Shown here: piece by piece, positions 48,185 through 60,102 of the stretch | Layout: each line of letters opens with the position of its first letter | Numbering within the stretch: the stretch's first letter is position 1 | From: Microcaldota archaeon | GTDB lineage: Archaea; Micrarchaeota; Micrarchaeia; Micrarchaeales; Micrarchaeaceae | Length of the DNA stretch: 64,000 nt | NCBI GenBank assembly: GCA_028866715.1 | Contig: JAGWHO010000003.1 | Coordinates: forward strand, 1-64,000 | Direction of reading: 5' to 3' | The notes under the pieces: model-generated | The model's input: only the letters and a program-made list of their open reading frames with translations | What the model was told of the DNA's origin: nothing | Database searches by the model: none | Program-made: the position numbers and the translations under genes

Positions 48185-48873
48185 ACGTGTATCATGTAAA
48201 AGAGCGCGAATATTCCTATAAGGTTGATGGCCGCATGCGGGATTATCGTAGCGTACAGCGACCTCGTCTTCCTGAATACGTATCCTGCAGCAAGTCCGAA
48301 TGCGAGCGCCGCCGCGAATTCCGAGACAGATTCATAGCTCAGGCCGTGCAGCGCCGCGAACACCAGGGCGCTGGCGACTATGCCTATGCGCGGCACAAGG
48401 AACCCCCTGAATAGTATCTCCTCGTTTATCGGGGCGATTATTATCCCGAAAGCGAGGAAGTAGATAGGCGCCCCATTGAGCAGCATGCCCACGTTCGTTG
48501 GGAGCGATATCCCGGTAGCGTAGGAGAACAGCCCTATCGCTATCTCGATCATGATGAGTATGGCGAAGAGCATCAGCGCGTAGTATATGCTCCTGCGCGT
48601 CAGCCTGTCTCTAGAAAGGCCGAGCGAGCTTATAATCTCCGTGGGCCTGGTCCCCCTGAAGCCCATCCACGAAAGCGCTATCGAAGGAAAGAGTAATGAC
48701 AGCGTTACGCTGCTTAGGTAAAGGTAATCGCCCTGCTGCGTGGCAGCGTACTGCCATGAGAGGTAAGCCGTCAAAATGATTAGCGCGAGGGTTATCGCGT
48801 AGAATGCGTATCTTGCATTTGAGGGAACAGGCCTGGCGCGCGAACGGCCCTTTGGTGCTCTCCTCTTTGCCAA
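48181..48873 (-). CDS. CPBP-family intramembrane metalloprotease
   Basis: A 230-residue integral membrane protein with about seven helices and the motifs EEILFRGFLVPR, FAALHGLSYE and IPHAAINLIG, which hold the catalytic Glu and His ligands. Rce1-like enzymes cleave prenylated or other substrates within the membrane. The substrate here is unknown. Its start is TTG. Confidence 0.87.
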   Translation of the reverse strand: MAKRRAPKGRSRARPVPSNARYAFYAITLALIILTAYLSWQYAATQQGDYLYLSSVTLSLLFPSIALSWMGFRGTRPTEIISSLGLSRDRLTRRSIYYALMLFAILIMIEIAIGLFSYATGISLPTNVGMLLNGAPIYFLAFGIIIAPINEEILFRGFLVPRIGIVASALVFAALHGLSYESVSEFAAALAFGLAAGYVFRKTRSLYATIIPHAAINLIGIFALFYMIHV

Positions 48874-49874: not shown

Positions 49875-50906
49875 TCAAAGGCCTTCCATCCCCTCAAGGA
49901 AGTTCCTGTCAGTCGACGCGCTCTTTGATGAGGCAGGCGATGCGCCTGCGCCAAGGTTAGGCGTAACTCCCGTGACTATCGACATGACCTTTATCTCATC
50001 TCCTAGGCTCTCGTCGAGCCTTGCTCCGAATATGACGTTTGCGTTGTCATTCAGGCCTGCGGTCACGCCCTCTCCTACTGTTGTTGCCTCCTCTATTGAG
50101 AGCGAGTGGCTTCCCGAAACATGGACGAGCGCGCTCTTGCCTCCTTCTATGTTCACGTTCATGAGCGGGTGCTGCAGCGTAGACCTCACTGCCTTCTCCA
50201 CCTTGTCGTGGCCGTTTCCCGAGCCTAAATTTATCACAGCCGTGCCTGCATTCCTCATTACAGCCCTCACGTCAGCAAGGTCCAGGTTTATGAGGCTCGG
50301 GTACATTATCGTGTCTGTTATCCCTCTTATGGCGTTTGATGCTATGCTGTCTATGAGTTCAAATGCCTTCTCTATCTGCAGGTTGGGCGCGTAACTTAGG
50401 ACCTTGTCGTTCTCTATGACAACAGTCGTGTCGGCATGCCTTCCAAGCTGCTGGAGGGCCCAGTCTGCCTTGTTCTTCCTTGATCTCTCAAGCGAGAACG
50501 GATAGGTCACAAACGCAACTACGGTAGAGCCCTGCGCCCTTGCTATCTCGGCCACTACAGGCAGAGTCCCGGATCCTGTTCCGCCGCCCATGCCTGCAGC
50601 GAGGAATACAAGGTCATAACCGGATATGAGGTCCTCAATCTCGGACTTGCTCGATTCTGCTGCCTTCATGCCCATCTCAGGGAAGCCGCCTGCGCCAAGG
50701 CCTCTTGTAACGTTCTTTCCTATCAGGACCTTGCGGTCCGCATTGACTATCCTTAGGTGGTTTGCATCGGTATTCAGCGCTATTGTAGTTGCGCTCTTGA
50801 GCCCTGAGTTGTATAACCTGTTTATCAGGTTGCTTCCCTGGCCTCCTGCGCCAACTACAGCTATCTTAGCGACAAATTCATCTCCTTCCTGCGAATTGTT
50901 ACTCAT
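49875..50906 (-). CDS. ftsZ2: FtsZ cell-division GTPase (second paralogue)
   Basis: A 343-residue tubulin homologue. GTP-binding GAGGQGSN, signature GMGGGTGSGT near residue 105, and T7-loop NLDLADVRAVM for GTP hydrolysis. FtsZ2 in haloarchaea controls constriction. Tandem with a second ftsZ gene about 80 bp upstream, but with its own ribosome-binding site (GGTGGAACA). Paralogue number is tentative. Confidence 0.93.
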   Translation of the reverse strand: MSNNSQEGDEFVAKIAVVGAGGQGSNLINRLYNSGLKSATTIALNTDANHLRIVNADRKVLIGKNVTRGLGAGGFPEMGMKAAESSKSEIEDLISGYDLVFLAAGMGGGTGSGTLPVVAEIARAQGSTVVAFVTYPFSLERSRKNKADWALQQLGRHADTTVVIENDKVLSYAPNLQIEKAFELIDSIASNAIRGITDTIMYPSLINLDLADVRAVMRNAGTAVINLGSGNGHDKVEKAVRSTLQHPLMNVNIEGGKSALVHVSGSHSLSIEEATTVGEGVTAGLNDNANVIFGARLDESLGDEIKVMSIVTGVTPNLGAGASPASSKSASTDRNFLEGMEGL

Positions 50907-50999: not shown

Positions 51000-52042
51000 T
51001 CGAGGTCGCCATAGGGCTGGGGCTTTGCCTCATCTTGGAGGTTGCCCACTATGGATGCGCCCCTTACTCCTGTGACTATCGCGACTATCTCTATCTGGTC
51101 GTCGTAGCCAGGCATGAGCCTTGCGCCCCATTTTATGTTGGCCTTCTGGTCCATCTTCTCGGTGATTATTTCACCTGCATGTATCGCATCGCCGATTGTC
51201 ATTGATGCGCCGCCTGAGATGTGTATCAGAGCACCGGATGCGCCCTCGAAGTCAACGTCAAGCAGCTTGTTCTTGAGAACAGACTCCGCAGCAGCAGTGA
51301 CCTTGTCGTTGCCCTTTCCTGAGCCTACCGCTATGAAACCAACGCCGCCGTTGCCCATTATGCTTCTTACATCGGCAAAGTCTATGTTGATCAGGCTTGG
51401 CTGGGTTATCGTCCAGACGAGTCCGCCTATTGCCTTTGCCAGAACGTTGTCCGCAAGCGCGAACGCCTCGTTCATCGGCAGGTTTGGCACTAACTTGACC
51501 AATCTGTTGTTATCAAGGATTATTACGCTGTCGGCGTTCTTCCTGAGCTTTTGTATACCTTCTTCTGCCTTGACCTTTCTTACCCTCTCAAGGTTGAATG
51601 GATAGGTCACCATCGCGATTACGATCGCGCCCTGCTCCTTTGCTATCTTCGCTGCGACAGGGATTGCGCCTGTTCCTGATCCACCTCCCATTCCCGCTGC
51701 GAGGAATACGAGCTGCGCGCCCTGGAAGACATCCTCTATTGCCTGCCTGTCGAGCTCGGCTGCCTTCTCTCCCATTGCCGGGTCGCCTCCTGCGCCTAGA
51801 CCGCGCGTTAGAGTCCTTCCGATGAGAACCTTCTTTATTCTCTCGTCAATTATCTTGAAGTGCTGAGCGTCAGTGTTTATCGCAACGAACTCTGTGCCCT
51901 TGACTCCCGCTTTGATAAGACGGTTGACTATGTTGCAACCTGCTCCTCCAAAACCCACTGTCACTATCCTTATCTGGGACGAGCTGTAGTCGTCCGTAGA
52001 TTCCTTGCTCTGCCCGAATATTTCATTTACCATGTCGGTCAT
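50987..52042 (-). CDS. ftsZ1: FtsZ cell-division GTPase (first paralogue)
   Basis: A 351-residue FtsZ with GFGGAGCNIVNRL, signature MGGGSGTGAIPV, and T7 loop NIDFADVRSIM. It starts MTDMVNEIFGQSKE, with an ATG after GCGATATC. It forms the division ring with ftsZ2 and SepF. An AT-rich promoter region (52043-52241) lies upstream, with no gene seen in it. Confidence 0.94.
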   Translation of the reverse strand: MTDMVNEIFGQSKESTDDYSSSQIRIVTVGFGGAGCNIVNRLIKAGVKGTEFVAINTDAQHFKIIDERIKKVLIGRTLTRGLGAGGDPAMGEKAAELDRQAIEDVFQGAQLVFLAAGMGGGSGTGAIPVAAKIAKEQGAIVIAMVTYPFNLERVRKVKAEEGIQKLRKNADSVIILDNNRLVKLVPNLPMNEAFALADNVLAKAIGGLVWTITQPSLINIDFADVRSIMGNGGVGFIAVGSGKGNDKVTAAAESVLKNKLLDVDFEGASGALIHISGGASMTIGDAIHAGEIITEKMDQKANIKWGARLMPGYDDQIEIVAIVTGVRGASIVGNLQDEAKPQPYGDLEMIG

Positions 52043-54570: not shown

Positions 54571-55470
54571 TTATCTGCCGTTAGAGAGATAGACCAGGAG
54601 GGCCTTCTCAAGCAGCAGCTTGTTCCTTGCCTGCTCCCACACCACGCTCTGCTTCCCGTCAATCACGTCTGCAGCTATCTCCTCGCCCCTGTGCGCCGGC
54701 AGCGGGTGCATTACGATGGCATTAGGCTTCGCGAACTTCAGCATCTTGCTCGTTACCTGGTAAGGCGCAAAGAGCTTCCTTCTCTTTTCCGCCGACGACT
54801 CCCTTCCCATGCTCACGAACGTATCGGTGTATATGACATCCGCATCCTCAAGCCCATCTTCTATTGAATGGATCAGGTGTATTTTAGAGTGGGAATTCGC
54901 CTTTGTATAGCACCTGTTGTTCGGCTGGTAGCCCTTGGGCCCTACGAGATTGACCTCAGCGCCGAGTTTTGAAGCCGTGAGCATCAGCGAGTTGGCCGTG
55001 TTCTGCGATATGTCCCCGACAAACGCGATCTTCGCCTTGCTGATGTCGCGCCTGTGCTGCCTTATTGTATATACATCAGCAAGCGCCTGTGTCGGATGCT
55101 CGAGAAGGGTGAGCGCATTTATGACAGGAACCGTTGAATTTTCAGCGATCTCGACAAGCCTGTCGTGGTCGTTGATCCTTACCGCGATGAAGTCGCAGTA
55201 GCTGCTTATTACCTTTGCCGTATCGGCAAGGCTCTCCCCCCTAACAAGCTGGGACGTGTGCGCATCCACATAAATCGCGGTGCCGCCGAGCTGCGCCACA
55301 GCGACCTCAAAAGAGATCCTGGTCCTTGTCGAGGGCTCTTCGAAGAGAAGCGCGACTGTCGCGTGCTCCTTTACCGATTCAACCTCCTTGCCTGCGGCAA
55401 ACCTGTCGGCTATCGAGAATATTTTATTTATGGAATCTTTCGTGAGGTCGTCAGAGCTCAGGAAGTTTAT
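54571..55470 (-). CDS. ornithine carbamoyltransferase-like enzyme, non-canonical start
   Basis: A 299-residue carbamoyltransferase. The carbamoyl-phosphate site STRTR is at 47-51, and HPTQALADV and SMGRE are present. It ends with HPLPAHRGEE, where OTCases have HCLP. The reading frame opens INFLSSDDLTKDSINKIFSI, just as OTCases begin. The codon before is the stop of the upstream gene. No ATG, GTG or TTG occurs until residue 58, after STRTR. The likely start is ATA at 55468-55470, five bases after a GGTG core; CTG three codons later is an alternative. Cys-to-Pro makes the substrate uncertain. Confidence 0.85.
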   Translation of the reverse strand: MNFLSSDDLTKDSINKIFSIADRFAAGKEVESVKEHATVALLFEEPSTRTRISFEVAVAQLGGTAIYVDAHTSQLVRGESLADTAKVISSYCDFIAVRINDHDRLVEIAENSTVPVINALTLLEHPTQALADVYTIRQHRRDISKAKIAFVGDISQNTANSLMLTASKLGAEVNLVGPKGYQPNNRCYTKANSHSKIHLIHSIEDGLEDADVIYTDTFVSMGRESSAEKRRKLFAPYQVTSKMLKFAKPNAIVMHPLPAHRGEEIAADVIDGKQSVVWEQARNKLLLEKALLVYLSNGR

Positions 55471-55938
55471 CTAACCACCGAATATTGAACCGAAACCTGT
55501 AGCTGCAGTCTCCTTCTCGCTGCTTATCGCCTTCGCGACCTTTTCCTGTTCCTCTTCTGTCGCGCGCTTTATAGACTTGAACTCGTTCTTGAGCTTCTCC
55601 TCTGCGCCGGCAAGAAAGTCTTCAGGTGCGTTAAGATAGATATAAACTTTGTCCCTGTTCAGGCCGACCGATGCGCCGTCCTTTACCTCATACTCCTGCT
55701 TCCAGAATATTATGTTCATGAGGCGGTCCTCACGGAGCTTCTTGAGCTTCTCCTGCCTCGCTGCCTCTTCCGCACTCAACCTGTCCTGCTCCTCCTTAGG
55801 GAGTTTCTTGAATTCCTTCTCATCTTTTGGCATCGAGCTTGAGGGCAGAACCTTAGGGTCGTCGTAAGGATCATATTTCAAGAATTTCTTGAGTGCGTCT
55901 GCCTCGTTCCTGTCGCACTCGTATACCCTGATGGGCAA
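55471..55938 (-). CDS. uncharacterised coiled-coil protein
   Basis: About 155 residues, acidic/basic alternating and helical (EEQDRLSAEEAARQEKLKKLREDRL), ending GFGSIFGG. No domain recognised. The TTG at 55938 (LPIRVYECDR) fits the GGTG-plus-six spacing; a GTG at 55947 is also possible. Its stop directly abuts the ATA start of the carbamoyltransferase. Confidence 0.6.
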   Translation of the reverse strand: MPIRVYECDRNEADALKKFLKYDPYDDPKVLPSSSMPKDEKEFKKLPKEEQDRLSAEEAARQEKLKKLREDRLMNIIFWKQEYEVKDGASVGLNRDKVYIYLNAPEDFLAGAEEKLKNEFKSIKRATEEEQEKVAKAISSEKETAATGFGSIFGG

Positions 55939-57135: not shown

Positions 57136-57309
57136 ATGGCAGCCCCGACACAGAGAAAGAGCAACAGGGACAGGATCCCAGATGTAACCCCTCAAAAGGT
57201 AGTCCCTACAAAGATAGACCCGAGCATACCAAATATCTTCGATAAATTGCGCGTTGCCAGCGAGCAGAAGAAAAAGCAGATTAAAGAGCAGGACGGCCCA
57301 AAGAAGTAA
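57136..57309 (+). CDS. 57-residue basic hypothetical protein
   Basis: A short frame: MAAPTQRKSNRDRIPDVTPQ, and ending KKKQIKEQDGPKK. It is basic, without known motifs. It sits directly before the tRNA-binding protein gene. The low-complexity charged composition fits a small RNA-associated protein; not proven. Confidence 0.55.
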   Translation: MAAPTQRKSNRDRIPDVTPQKVVPTKIDPSIPNIFDKLRVASEQKKKQIKEQDGPKK

Positions 57310-57320
57310 TCGGTGTTTTA

Positions 57321-57647
57321 ATCGCATCGTTCGACGATTTCTCCAAACTCGACATAAGGGTAGGTAAGATCATAGAGGCAGACGACCTCGAAGGCGCGAG
57401 AAAACCCATCTACAAGCTGAAGGTCGACCTCGGCGAGCTCGGGATAAGAAGCATAGCTGCGGGCATAAAGGACAGATACACAAAAGAGGATCTTCTCAAC
57501 AAGCTTGTAGTTGTAGTGACAAATCTTGATCCAAAGAGCATTGCCGGATTCATTTCGGAAGGGATGCTGCTTGCAGGAGAGGATGGAGACATCCTGTCGC
57601 TTATAACCCCGGACAAGGAGCTGAAGCCTGGAAGCAAGATCGGCTGA
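57321..57647 (+). CDS. tRNA-binding domain protein (CsaA/MetRS C-domain type), ATC start
   Basis: 108 residues reading (I)ASFDDFSKLDIRVGKIIEAD near the start, SIAAGIKDRYTKEDLLNKLVVVVTNLDPKSIAGFISEGMLL and ending PGSKIG. This is the OB-fold tRNA-binding domain found at the end of MetRS and in CsaA/ARC1. No ATG, GTG or TTG exists upstream in frame within the intergenic gap; the family usually starts (M)xxFxDFxKLDIRVG. ATC at 57321 follows GGTG by five bases, the normal spacing here. MetRS at 58429 lacks this domain, so it may act in trans with it. Confidence 0.85.
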   Translation: MASFDDFSKLDIRVGKIIEADDLEGARKPIYKLKVDLGELGIRSIAAGIKDRYTKEDLLNKLVVVVTNLDPKSIAGFISEGMLLAGEDGDILSLITPDKELKPGSKIG

Positions 57648-58428: not shown

Positions 58429-60102
58429 TTATTGCTGTTCCTGCTTCTCGAGCTTCGCCAGCGCCTCCTTGCTTACCTTGCTGAATATGGGGGTAATCTC
58501 AAGGCTGAGGTCCGGCTTTGCCCTCTTTGATAGCAGCTTCATGTCAGGTTCCTTCATTATACCGAAATACGAGAGGGCCTTGCCGCTTGCGTCAGGCGAG
58601 AACGGATATAGGAGAACGCTCACGTAATAGACAAGGTTTAACAGCGAGCCCATTATCTCTGTGAACTCCTTTTCTGCTGCAGAGTCTGCAGCAGCTTTTT
58701 TTGCCAGGGCCCATGGCTCCTTGGAGCTCATCAGCTCGTTTCCATAATCGGCAAGCTCCAGCAGCGCGTTCAGTGCTCCCCTCAGGTCAAACTTCTCAAA
58801 CCTGTCCCTGTATTCGGTTATGATCTCGTCTGCCTTATGCCCGGTCTCAGCATCTATCTTCGCGGTCTCGTCTATGCGGTCGCTGTTGTTCTTCGATATG
58901 GTGAGAACCCTGTGTATAAGATTCCCGATCTTGTCGTTCATCAGCTTGTTCACTACTTCGACAAGAAGCTCCTTCGTGAACTCGGTGTCGGCAGTCTCGG
59001 GGTACATGTGCATGAGCGCGAATCTCCAGTAATCAGATGGAAGGATGTGCAGCGCGGTGTTAAGGTTTAGGCCCACTCCCCTGCTCTTCGAAAATTTTAT
59101 CTTCTTTGATATGAGATGCTCTGATGCCCTTATCGTTGCCGGGAGCGTGAAGCCCATCTTGGAGCCTATGAGCATCGCAGGCCACATCGTGGTATGGAAC
59201 TCTATGTTGTCCTTTCCCATGAAGTGGACGAGTCTTGTATCCTCAGAGAGCCAGTAGTCCTTCCATCTCTTGGCGTTCCACTCCTTCGTTATGCCGATAT
59301 AGCCGGCTAGGCCGTCGTACCAGACGTAGAAGACGTTGTCCTCGAATCCCTTCCTGTTGACAGGTATGCCCCACCTCATGTTCCTCGTTATATCCCTTGG
59401 CTTCAGGCCTTCTTTTATGTAGCTCAATGACTTGTTGTACGCATTTTTGCTCCAGTTGTTGTTTCTAGATGACTCAACGAACTTCAGTATCGGCTTCTGC
59501 AGCTTGTCCATCGATAGAGCCATGTTCCTCGCTTTCACGAATTTTATGTCGCTCTTTCCGCATATGGTGCAGTGCGGCTTGATCAACTCTGCTGGTGTTA
59601 GGAGATGGCCGCAGTTGTCGCACTGGTCGCCGCGGGCCAGTGCGCTCTCGCAGTACGGGCACGTTCCCTCTATCAGCCTGTCTGTCAGAAAGCGCCTGTC
59701 GACGTTGCAGTATGCCTGGTCCTGCTCTACCGTGATTATGTAGCCGTTCTTGTCAAGCGCGTCGGTTATCTCGTAGACTATGTCCATGTTTGCCTTTGAG
59801 TGGGTCTTGCCGTAATGGGTGAAGGTGCAGCCGTACTTCTCGAAAAGCGCCTTTATCTCCTCGTGCATTGACTCTGCAAGCTTCTCCGGGTCTATTTTCT
59901 CGCGTATGGCCCTGAGCTCCACAGGCGTGCCGTGCTGGTCGGAGCCGGATATGAAGATGAAGTCCTCTCCCTTCATCTTGAGGTATTTTGAGTACACGTC
60001 AGCGGCTAGGATCGAGCCCACGAAGTTGCCGAGGTGCGGGATTGAGTATGCGTAAGGAAGCGCTGCAGCGACTATTGTCCTCAAATTACCACTATCAGAC
60101 AT
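58429..60102 (-). CDS. metG: methionyl-tRNA synthetase
   Basis: A 557-residue class I synthetase with PHLGN in place of HIGH (AAALPYAYSIPHLGNF), zinc ligands CPYC, CDNC and CTIC, KFSKSRGVG for KMSKS, and an anticodon-binding helical domain ending LAKLEKQEQQ. The OB-fold C-terminal tRNA-binding domain is missing and is encoded separately at 57321. Confidence 0.95.
   Translation of the reverse strand: MSDSGNLRTIVAAALPYAYSIPHLGNFVGSILAADVYSKYLKMKGEDFIFISGSDQHGTPVELRAIREKIDPEKLAESMHEEIKALFEKYGCTFTHYGKTHSKANMDIVYEITDALDKNGYIITVEQDQAYCNVDRRFLTDRLIEGTCPYCESALARGDQCDNCGHLLTPAELIKPHCTICGKSDIKFVKARNMALSMDKLQKPILKFVESSRNNNWSKNAYNKSLSYIKEGLKPRDITRNMRWGIPVNRKGFEDNVFYVWYDGLAGYIGITKEWNAKRWKDYWLSEDTRLVHFMGKDNIEFHTTMWPAMLIGSKMGFTLPATIRASEHLISKKIKFSKSRGVGLNLNTALHILPSDYWRFALMHMYPETADTEFTKELLVEVVNKLMNDKIGNLIHRVLTISKNNSDRIDETAKIDAETGHKADEIITEYRDRFEKFDLRGALNALLELADYGNELMSSKEPWALAKKAAADSAAEKEFTEIMGSLLNLVYYVSVLLYPFSPDASGKALSYFGIMKEPDMKLLSKRAKPDLSLEITPIFSKVSKEALAKLEKQEQQ

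Follow-up and report, generated by a model that had tools for sequence, protein, structure and literature searches.

The tRNA-binding protein gene and its surroundings

The window analysed here, 64,000 nucleotides of contig JAGWHO010000003.1 from a Microcaldota archaeon, contains a gene for a small tRNA-binding protein that has an ATC where a start codon is expected (Table 1). A TGA 12 codons upstream of the ATC closes the reading frame, neither ATG, GTG nor TTG lies in between, and the first canonical in-frame codon is a GTG at 57516, codon 66 of the gene. In a profile search the PF01588 domain was complete in the product (residues 12-106 against profile positions 1-96 of 96, E 3e-25), bearing out the original prediction of a whole domain with no standard start upstream. 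With this domain and a length of about 110 amino acids, the product is, by its sequence, a stand-alone tRNA-binding (MetRS-beta-like) protein for which tRNA/MetRS binding is predicted. The gene is single copy in the genome, stays open to its normal end and has a good coding score in the codon-model scan. Differences from the closest orthologue (genome G012) fall 21/12/65 on codon positions 1/2/3, and the gene is therefore under purifying selection.

A methionyl-tRNA synthetase encoded nearby lacks the C-terminal tRNA-binding domain and is the probable partner of the protein. Directly upstream lies an orphan ORF of 57 amino acids that probably comes first in the transcript. Its product is basic, a TATA-like sequence lies shortly upstream of it and it is possibly leaderless. 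No homologue of this ORF was found near the orthologues of the tRNA-binding protein gene and a Pfam search with it was also empty.

Table 1 Genes and signals discussed in the text. Positions are those of the window unless a contig (C) or genome (G, A_DKE) is named
Feature	Position	Strand	Start codon	Remarks
Orphan 57-aa ORF	57136..57309	+		Ends 11 nt before the ATC
GGTG Shine-Dalgarno core	57312..57315	+		5 nt ahead of the ATC; spacer TTTTA at 57316-57320
ATC start codon (candidate)	57321..57323	+	ATC	Same column as ATG/GTG/TTG of non-extended orthologues
Stand-alone tRNA-binding (MetRS-beta-like) gene	57321..57647	+	ATC	108 codons and TGA
Methionyl-tRNA synthetase	58429..60102	-		557 aa, PF01588 absent
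Ornithine carbamoyltransferase (OTC)	54571..55470	-	ATA	ATA at 55470-55468; in-frame TAG immediately upstream; OTCace_N match from residue 2
GGTG ahead of the OTC ATA	55476..55479	-		5 nt spacing
Pelota	C2:10490		ATC	Confirmed by orthologue column; ACG in the G006 orthologue
FtsZ	C5:4510		ATA	Confirmed by orthologue column
aIF1A	G000:C19:78423	+	ATA	After AGTG-N5; probable only, TTG and ATG without Shine-Dalgarno upstream
C24:15191 protein	C24:15191		ATA	Weaker case, found partly through the Shine-Dalgarno sequence
RNase HII	C22:13904		ATA	Possible case; TTG six codons upstream; found partly through the Shine-Dalgarno sequence
TBP-domain protein	A_DKE		ACG	GGTG-N5
Rrp42-like exosome subunit	A_DKE		ACG	GGTG-N5
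Spermidine-synthase-like protein	A_DKE		ATC	GGTG-N5; the preceding codon is a stop
Membrane protein	A_DKE		CTG	GGTG-N5

Orthologues place the start at the ATC column

Among the genomes compared, this one is the sole member of its genus, and the orthologue alignment took in its family (85 genomes) together with the sister family. Orthologues of the tRNA-binding protein gene are present in 83 of the 85 family genomes. Throughout the family and sister family, orthologues that are not extended at the N-terminus have ATG, GTG or TTG at the ATC column or within a few codons of it, in agreement with the earlier claim that the ATC gives the expected N-terminus. The exceptions, in which a canonical codon is missing, are the ATC described here, an ACG directly after TAA in G034 (CGTG-GTTAA-ACG) and a CTG in G006 (GGTG-ATTCA-CTG). 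Extended orthologues, with about 40-170 extra residues and their own upstream ATG, occur in genera g4, g6, g10, g18 and g26; the extension is absent from the closest orthologues (G012, G035, G034 and G016). The gene in the window offers no canonical start that would preserve the conserved N-terminus.

The spacing between GGTG and ATC had been predicted to be that used locally, and five is indeed the modal Shine-Dalgarno (SD) spacing of the genome (108 of about 250 predicted starts bearing an SD in the 418 kb scan described below). The exact GGTG-N5 context precedes only 27 of 406 canonical genes, and GTG-N5 only 79 of 406 (19 %), so that its presence ahead of the ATC is specific rather than trivial.

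Near-cognate starts elsewhere in the genome

The genome is a metagenome-type assembly of 25 contigs. With contig C19 as the training set, a codon model was run over 418 kb of the genome's 878 kb, yielding 420 closed genes. Fourteen of these have no well-placed canonical start, and in six of the fourteen ATA or ATC follows (G)GTG-N5, as the original prediction had proposed that such a scan might reveal: the genes for the tRNA-binding protein, ornithine carbamoyltransferase, aIF1A, pelota, FtsZ and the C24:15191 protein. The ATA case to which that prediction had referred is the ornithine carbamoyltransferase gene, read as GGTG-GTTAG-ATA with the in-frame TAG ahead of the ATA. Nearly all of 30 orthologues have a canonical start at its ATA column, and G005 provides another ATA with GGTG-N5. 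Any canonical start in this gene would remove the STRTR carbamoyl-phosphate motif. Tandem FtsZ-like paralogues also lie in the window (49956-50870 and 51065-51982, minus strand), besides the canonical FtsZ elsewhere, and a similar set is found in each relative. An Rce1-like gene near 48810 (minus strand), also flagged by the scan, was dropped, as an ORF from the TTG at 48873 covers it.

In the raw tally of codons after GGTG-N5, ATA and ATC together occur 6 times against about 3.3 expected. Because this enrichment is only mild, the case rests on the orthologue alignment and not on the tally. Orthologues fix the position of eight near-cognate starts, four in this genome and another four in relatives; GTG-N5 precedes all eight of them, compared with 79 of 406 canonical genes (about 2e-6 if the cases are independent).

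Near-cognate starts in relatives

The relatives traced through aIF1A that bear a name belong to Candidatus Micrarchaeota. Of one of these, Candidatus Micrarchaeum sp. A_DKE (NZ_CP060530.1), a single contig of 989,838 bases, we also scanned 400 kb. Nine of 367 genes were flagged and four of the nine have GGTG-N5 followed by a near-cognate codon (Table 1). For example, the Rrp42-like gene reads AGGTGATTTT-ACG in three assemblies of the genus (A_DKE and two others), and a 94 %-identical congener reads AGGTGATTTT-ATG; in this comparison G103 additionally carries an upstream ATG. The remaining flagged genes without GTG-N5, in the scans of both genomes, look like coding-edge noise. In both genomes sampled, near-cognate starts would account for some 1-2 % of the genes. 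The earlier suggestion that AUH initiation is tolerated is supported by the ATA and ATC starts of other conserved genes but proved too narrow, as relatives use ACG and CTG as well; the alignments support widening it to near-cognate codons after GGTG-N5.

The start of aIF1A

Among the family genomes in which aIF1A could be read, its gene has ATA or ATT with an SD at N5 in nine genomes from five genera (G010, G018, G092, G019, G004, G029, G095, G013 and G074), counting strictly those that lack a canonical codon ahead of the conserved core, with the exception of G092, which has a single GTG at the core edge; aIF1A is an initiation factor. About seven more genomes, including this one, are probable cases, giving 16 in total. 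The majority of aIF1A genes in the family start with ATG or TTG, so the non-canonical start is not conserved group-wide, and none of 13 sister-family genomes has an ATA or ATT start of aIF1A. On a weakly resolved tree of FtsZ and pelota, about 5-6 changes of the aIF1A start are needed. The excess over other genes is modest (9/70 compared with 4/121 for the other genes pooled, p 0.016, with kinship ignored and denominators counted by hand). The start of aIF1 is ATG in 13 of 13.

Initiation machinery

The gene for the initiator tRNA (C18:32317) encodes a CAU anticodon, the A1:U72 pair and GGG:CCC in the anticodon stem. An intron of 13 nt follows directly behind the anticodon (G000:C18:32317-32404). 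A dedicated AUA initiator tRNA was sought, but the one initiator-like tRNA in the genome stretches examined carries CAU, none with another anticodon being seen there, and tRNA-Ile(UAU) has an elongator-type acceptor (G1:C72). The UAU anticodon of this tRNA-Ile is genomically encoded (G000:C18:17843-17917), and in the coding model no codon is more over-represented than ATA; in most archaea tRNA-Ile has CAU with agmatidine. Loss of aIF1 as the cause of near-cognate starts was likewise rejected, for SUI1 is present and starts with ATG. The aIF1 (SUI1) of this group (G000:C1:28001-29300) has an N-terminal zinc-ribbon-like segment, CPRCGLP...CVC.

Alternative explanations

Translation might instead begin elsewhere, either through a frameshift or an unseen indel fusing the gene to the 57-aa ORF, or at a shorter downstream start. 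Orthologues in five genera do have long N-termini begun at an upstream ATG, but the 57-aa ORF bears no similarity to these extensions, the closest orthologues are unextended, initiation at GTG 57516 would cost most of the domain, and a GGTG stands 5 nt ahead of the ATC. We regard a start elsewhere as very unlikely. An error of sequencing or assembly, with a true ATG turned into ATC by one wrong base, is slightly less probable still: the assembly is a draft in 25 contigs and a single substitution would restore ATG, but further conserved genes of the same genome show a near-cognate start at the same spacing, like starts occur in other genomes, including the single-contig A_DKE, and are common to congeneric assemblies, and random errors would not pick out start codons behind GTG-N5.

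Gene decay often begins with the loss of the ATG, which is what would be expected if the gene were a pseudogene that has lost its start. This is the least likely of the three explanations. The frame is open to its normal end with a good coding score and differences mostly in third positions, the gene is single copy and retained by nearly all relatives, and joint decay of FtsZ, pelota and ornithine carbamoyltransferase is unlikely.

Translation from ATC as the preferred explanation

We conclude that the gene is very probably real and translated from its ATC by the ordinary initiator tRNA, as part of a dispersed use of near-cognate starts in this Micrarchaeota family; this conclusion is drawn from sequence comparison, namely from the orthologue alignment, the SD spacing, purifying selection and the recurrence of the pattern in other conserved genes, both here and in related genomes that come from independent projects. 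By pairing with the 16S rRNA anti-SD, GGUG would position AUC in the P site, where the ordinary CAU initiator tRNA would take it despite the third-position mismatch. The product would be expected to begin Met-Ala-Ser-Phe-Asp-Asp-Phe, with both initiation at the ATC and insertion of Met being inferred. More generally, the family would use AUA, AUC, AUU, ACG and CUG starts where the SD sits at its best spacing. Since an ordinary CAU initiator tRNA and aIF1 are both present, the simplest mechanism would be mismatch-tolerant recognition in the P site, offset by optimal placement of the SD.

If this is true, archaeal start selection accepts single mismatches at optimal SD spacing even with aIF1 present. 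The affected genes include those for FtsZ, pelota, aIF1A, ornithine carbamoyltransferase, a TBP-domain protein and an exosome subunit. Standard gene finders would truncate or miss such proteins, and annotation would have shortened or lost essential genes.

Comparison with known systems

Known stand-alone MetRS beta-subunit-like proteins (PF01588) are likewise full-length single domains, and here a synthetase without the domain is encoded nearby; the ATC start sets the present gene apart from them. A review of archaeal initiation gives only AUG, GUG and UUG as start codons (PMC7531240). The SD-led initiation described there shares with our proposal the SD pairing, the initiator tRNA, aIF1 and aIF1A, and differs in limiting starts to these three codons. 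Literature searches on start codon use in Micrarchaeota, or on AUA or AUC starts in archaea, returned nothing relevant.

In bacteria, AUU, AUC and AUA starts occur and IF3 discriminates against them (PMC4611024). The GTC start of Streptomyces sigR, repressed by IF3 and proven by mutagenesis (PMC5472188), is similarly an uncommon non-canonical start carried by a conserved gene, and predictors restricted to ATG, GTG or TTG overlook it; it differs in being a single bacterial gene established by mutagenesis, whereas the archaeal cases here are known from sequence comparison. The gene for IF3 itself, infC, starts with AUU (AUC in Streptomyces) and is autoregulated by IF3 (PMC5472188; PMC4611024). 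The recurrent AUA/AUU start of aIF1A would resemble this feedback: both are conserved genes with an AUH start, and aIF1A, as IF3, is an initiation factor repeatedly started in this way. The differences are that the present cases are archaeal, that IF3 is absent, that many unrelated genes are involved, that ACG and CUG are used too and that repression by aIF1A is putative. Tentatively, and with considerable doubt, the near-cognate start could, besides being tolerated, be a regulatory device in which the start-codon stringency of aIF1A limits its own synthesis, with metG-beta, OTC, pelota and FtsZ under the same control. The recurrence of AUA/AUU at aIF1A makes an archaeal start-codon feedback loop directly testable.
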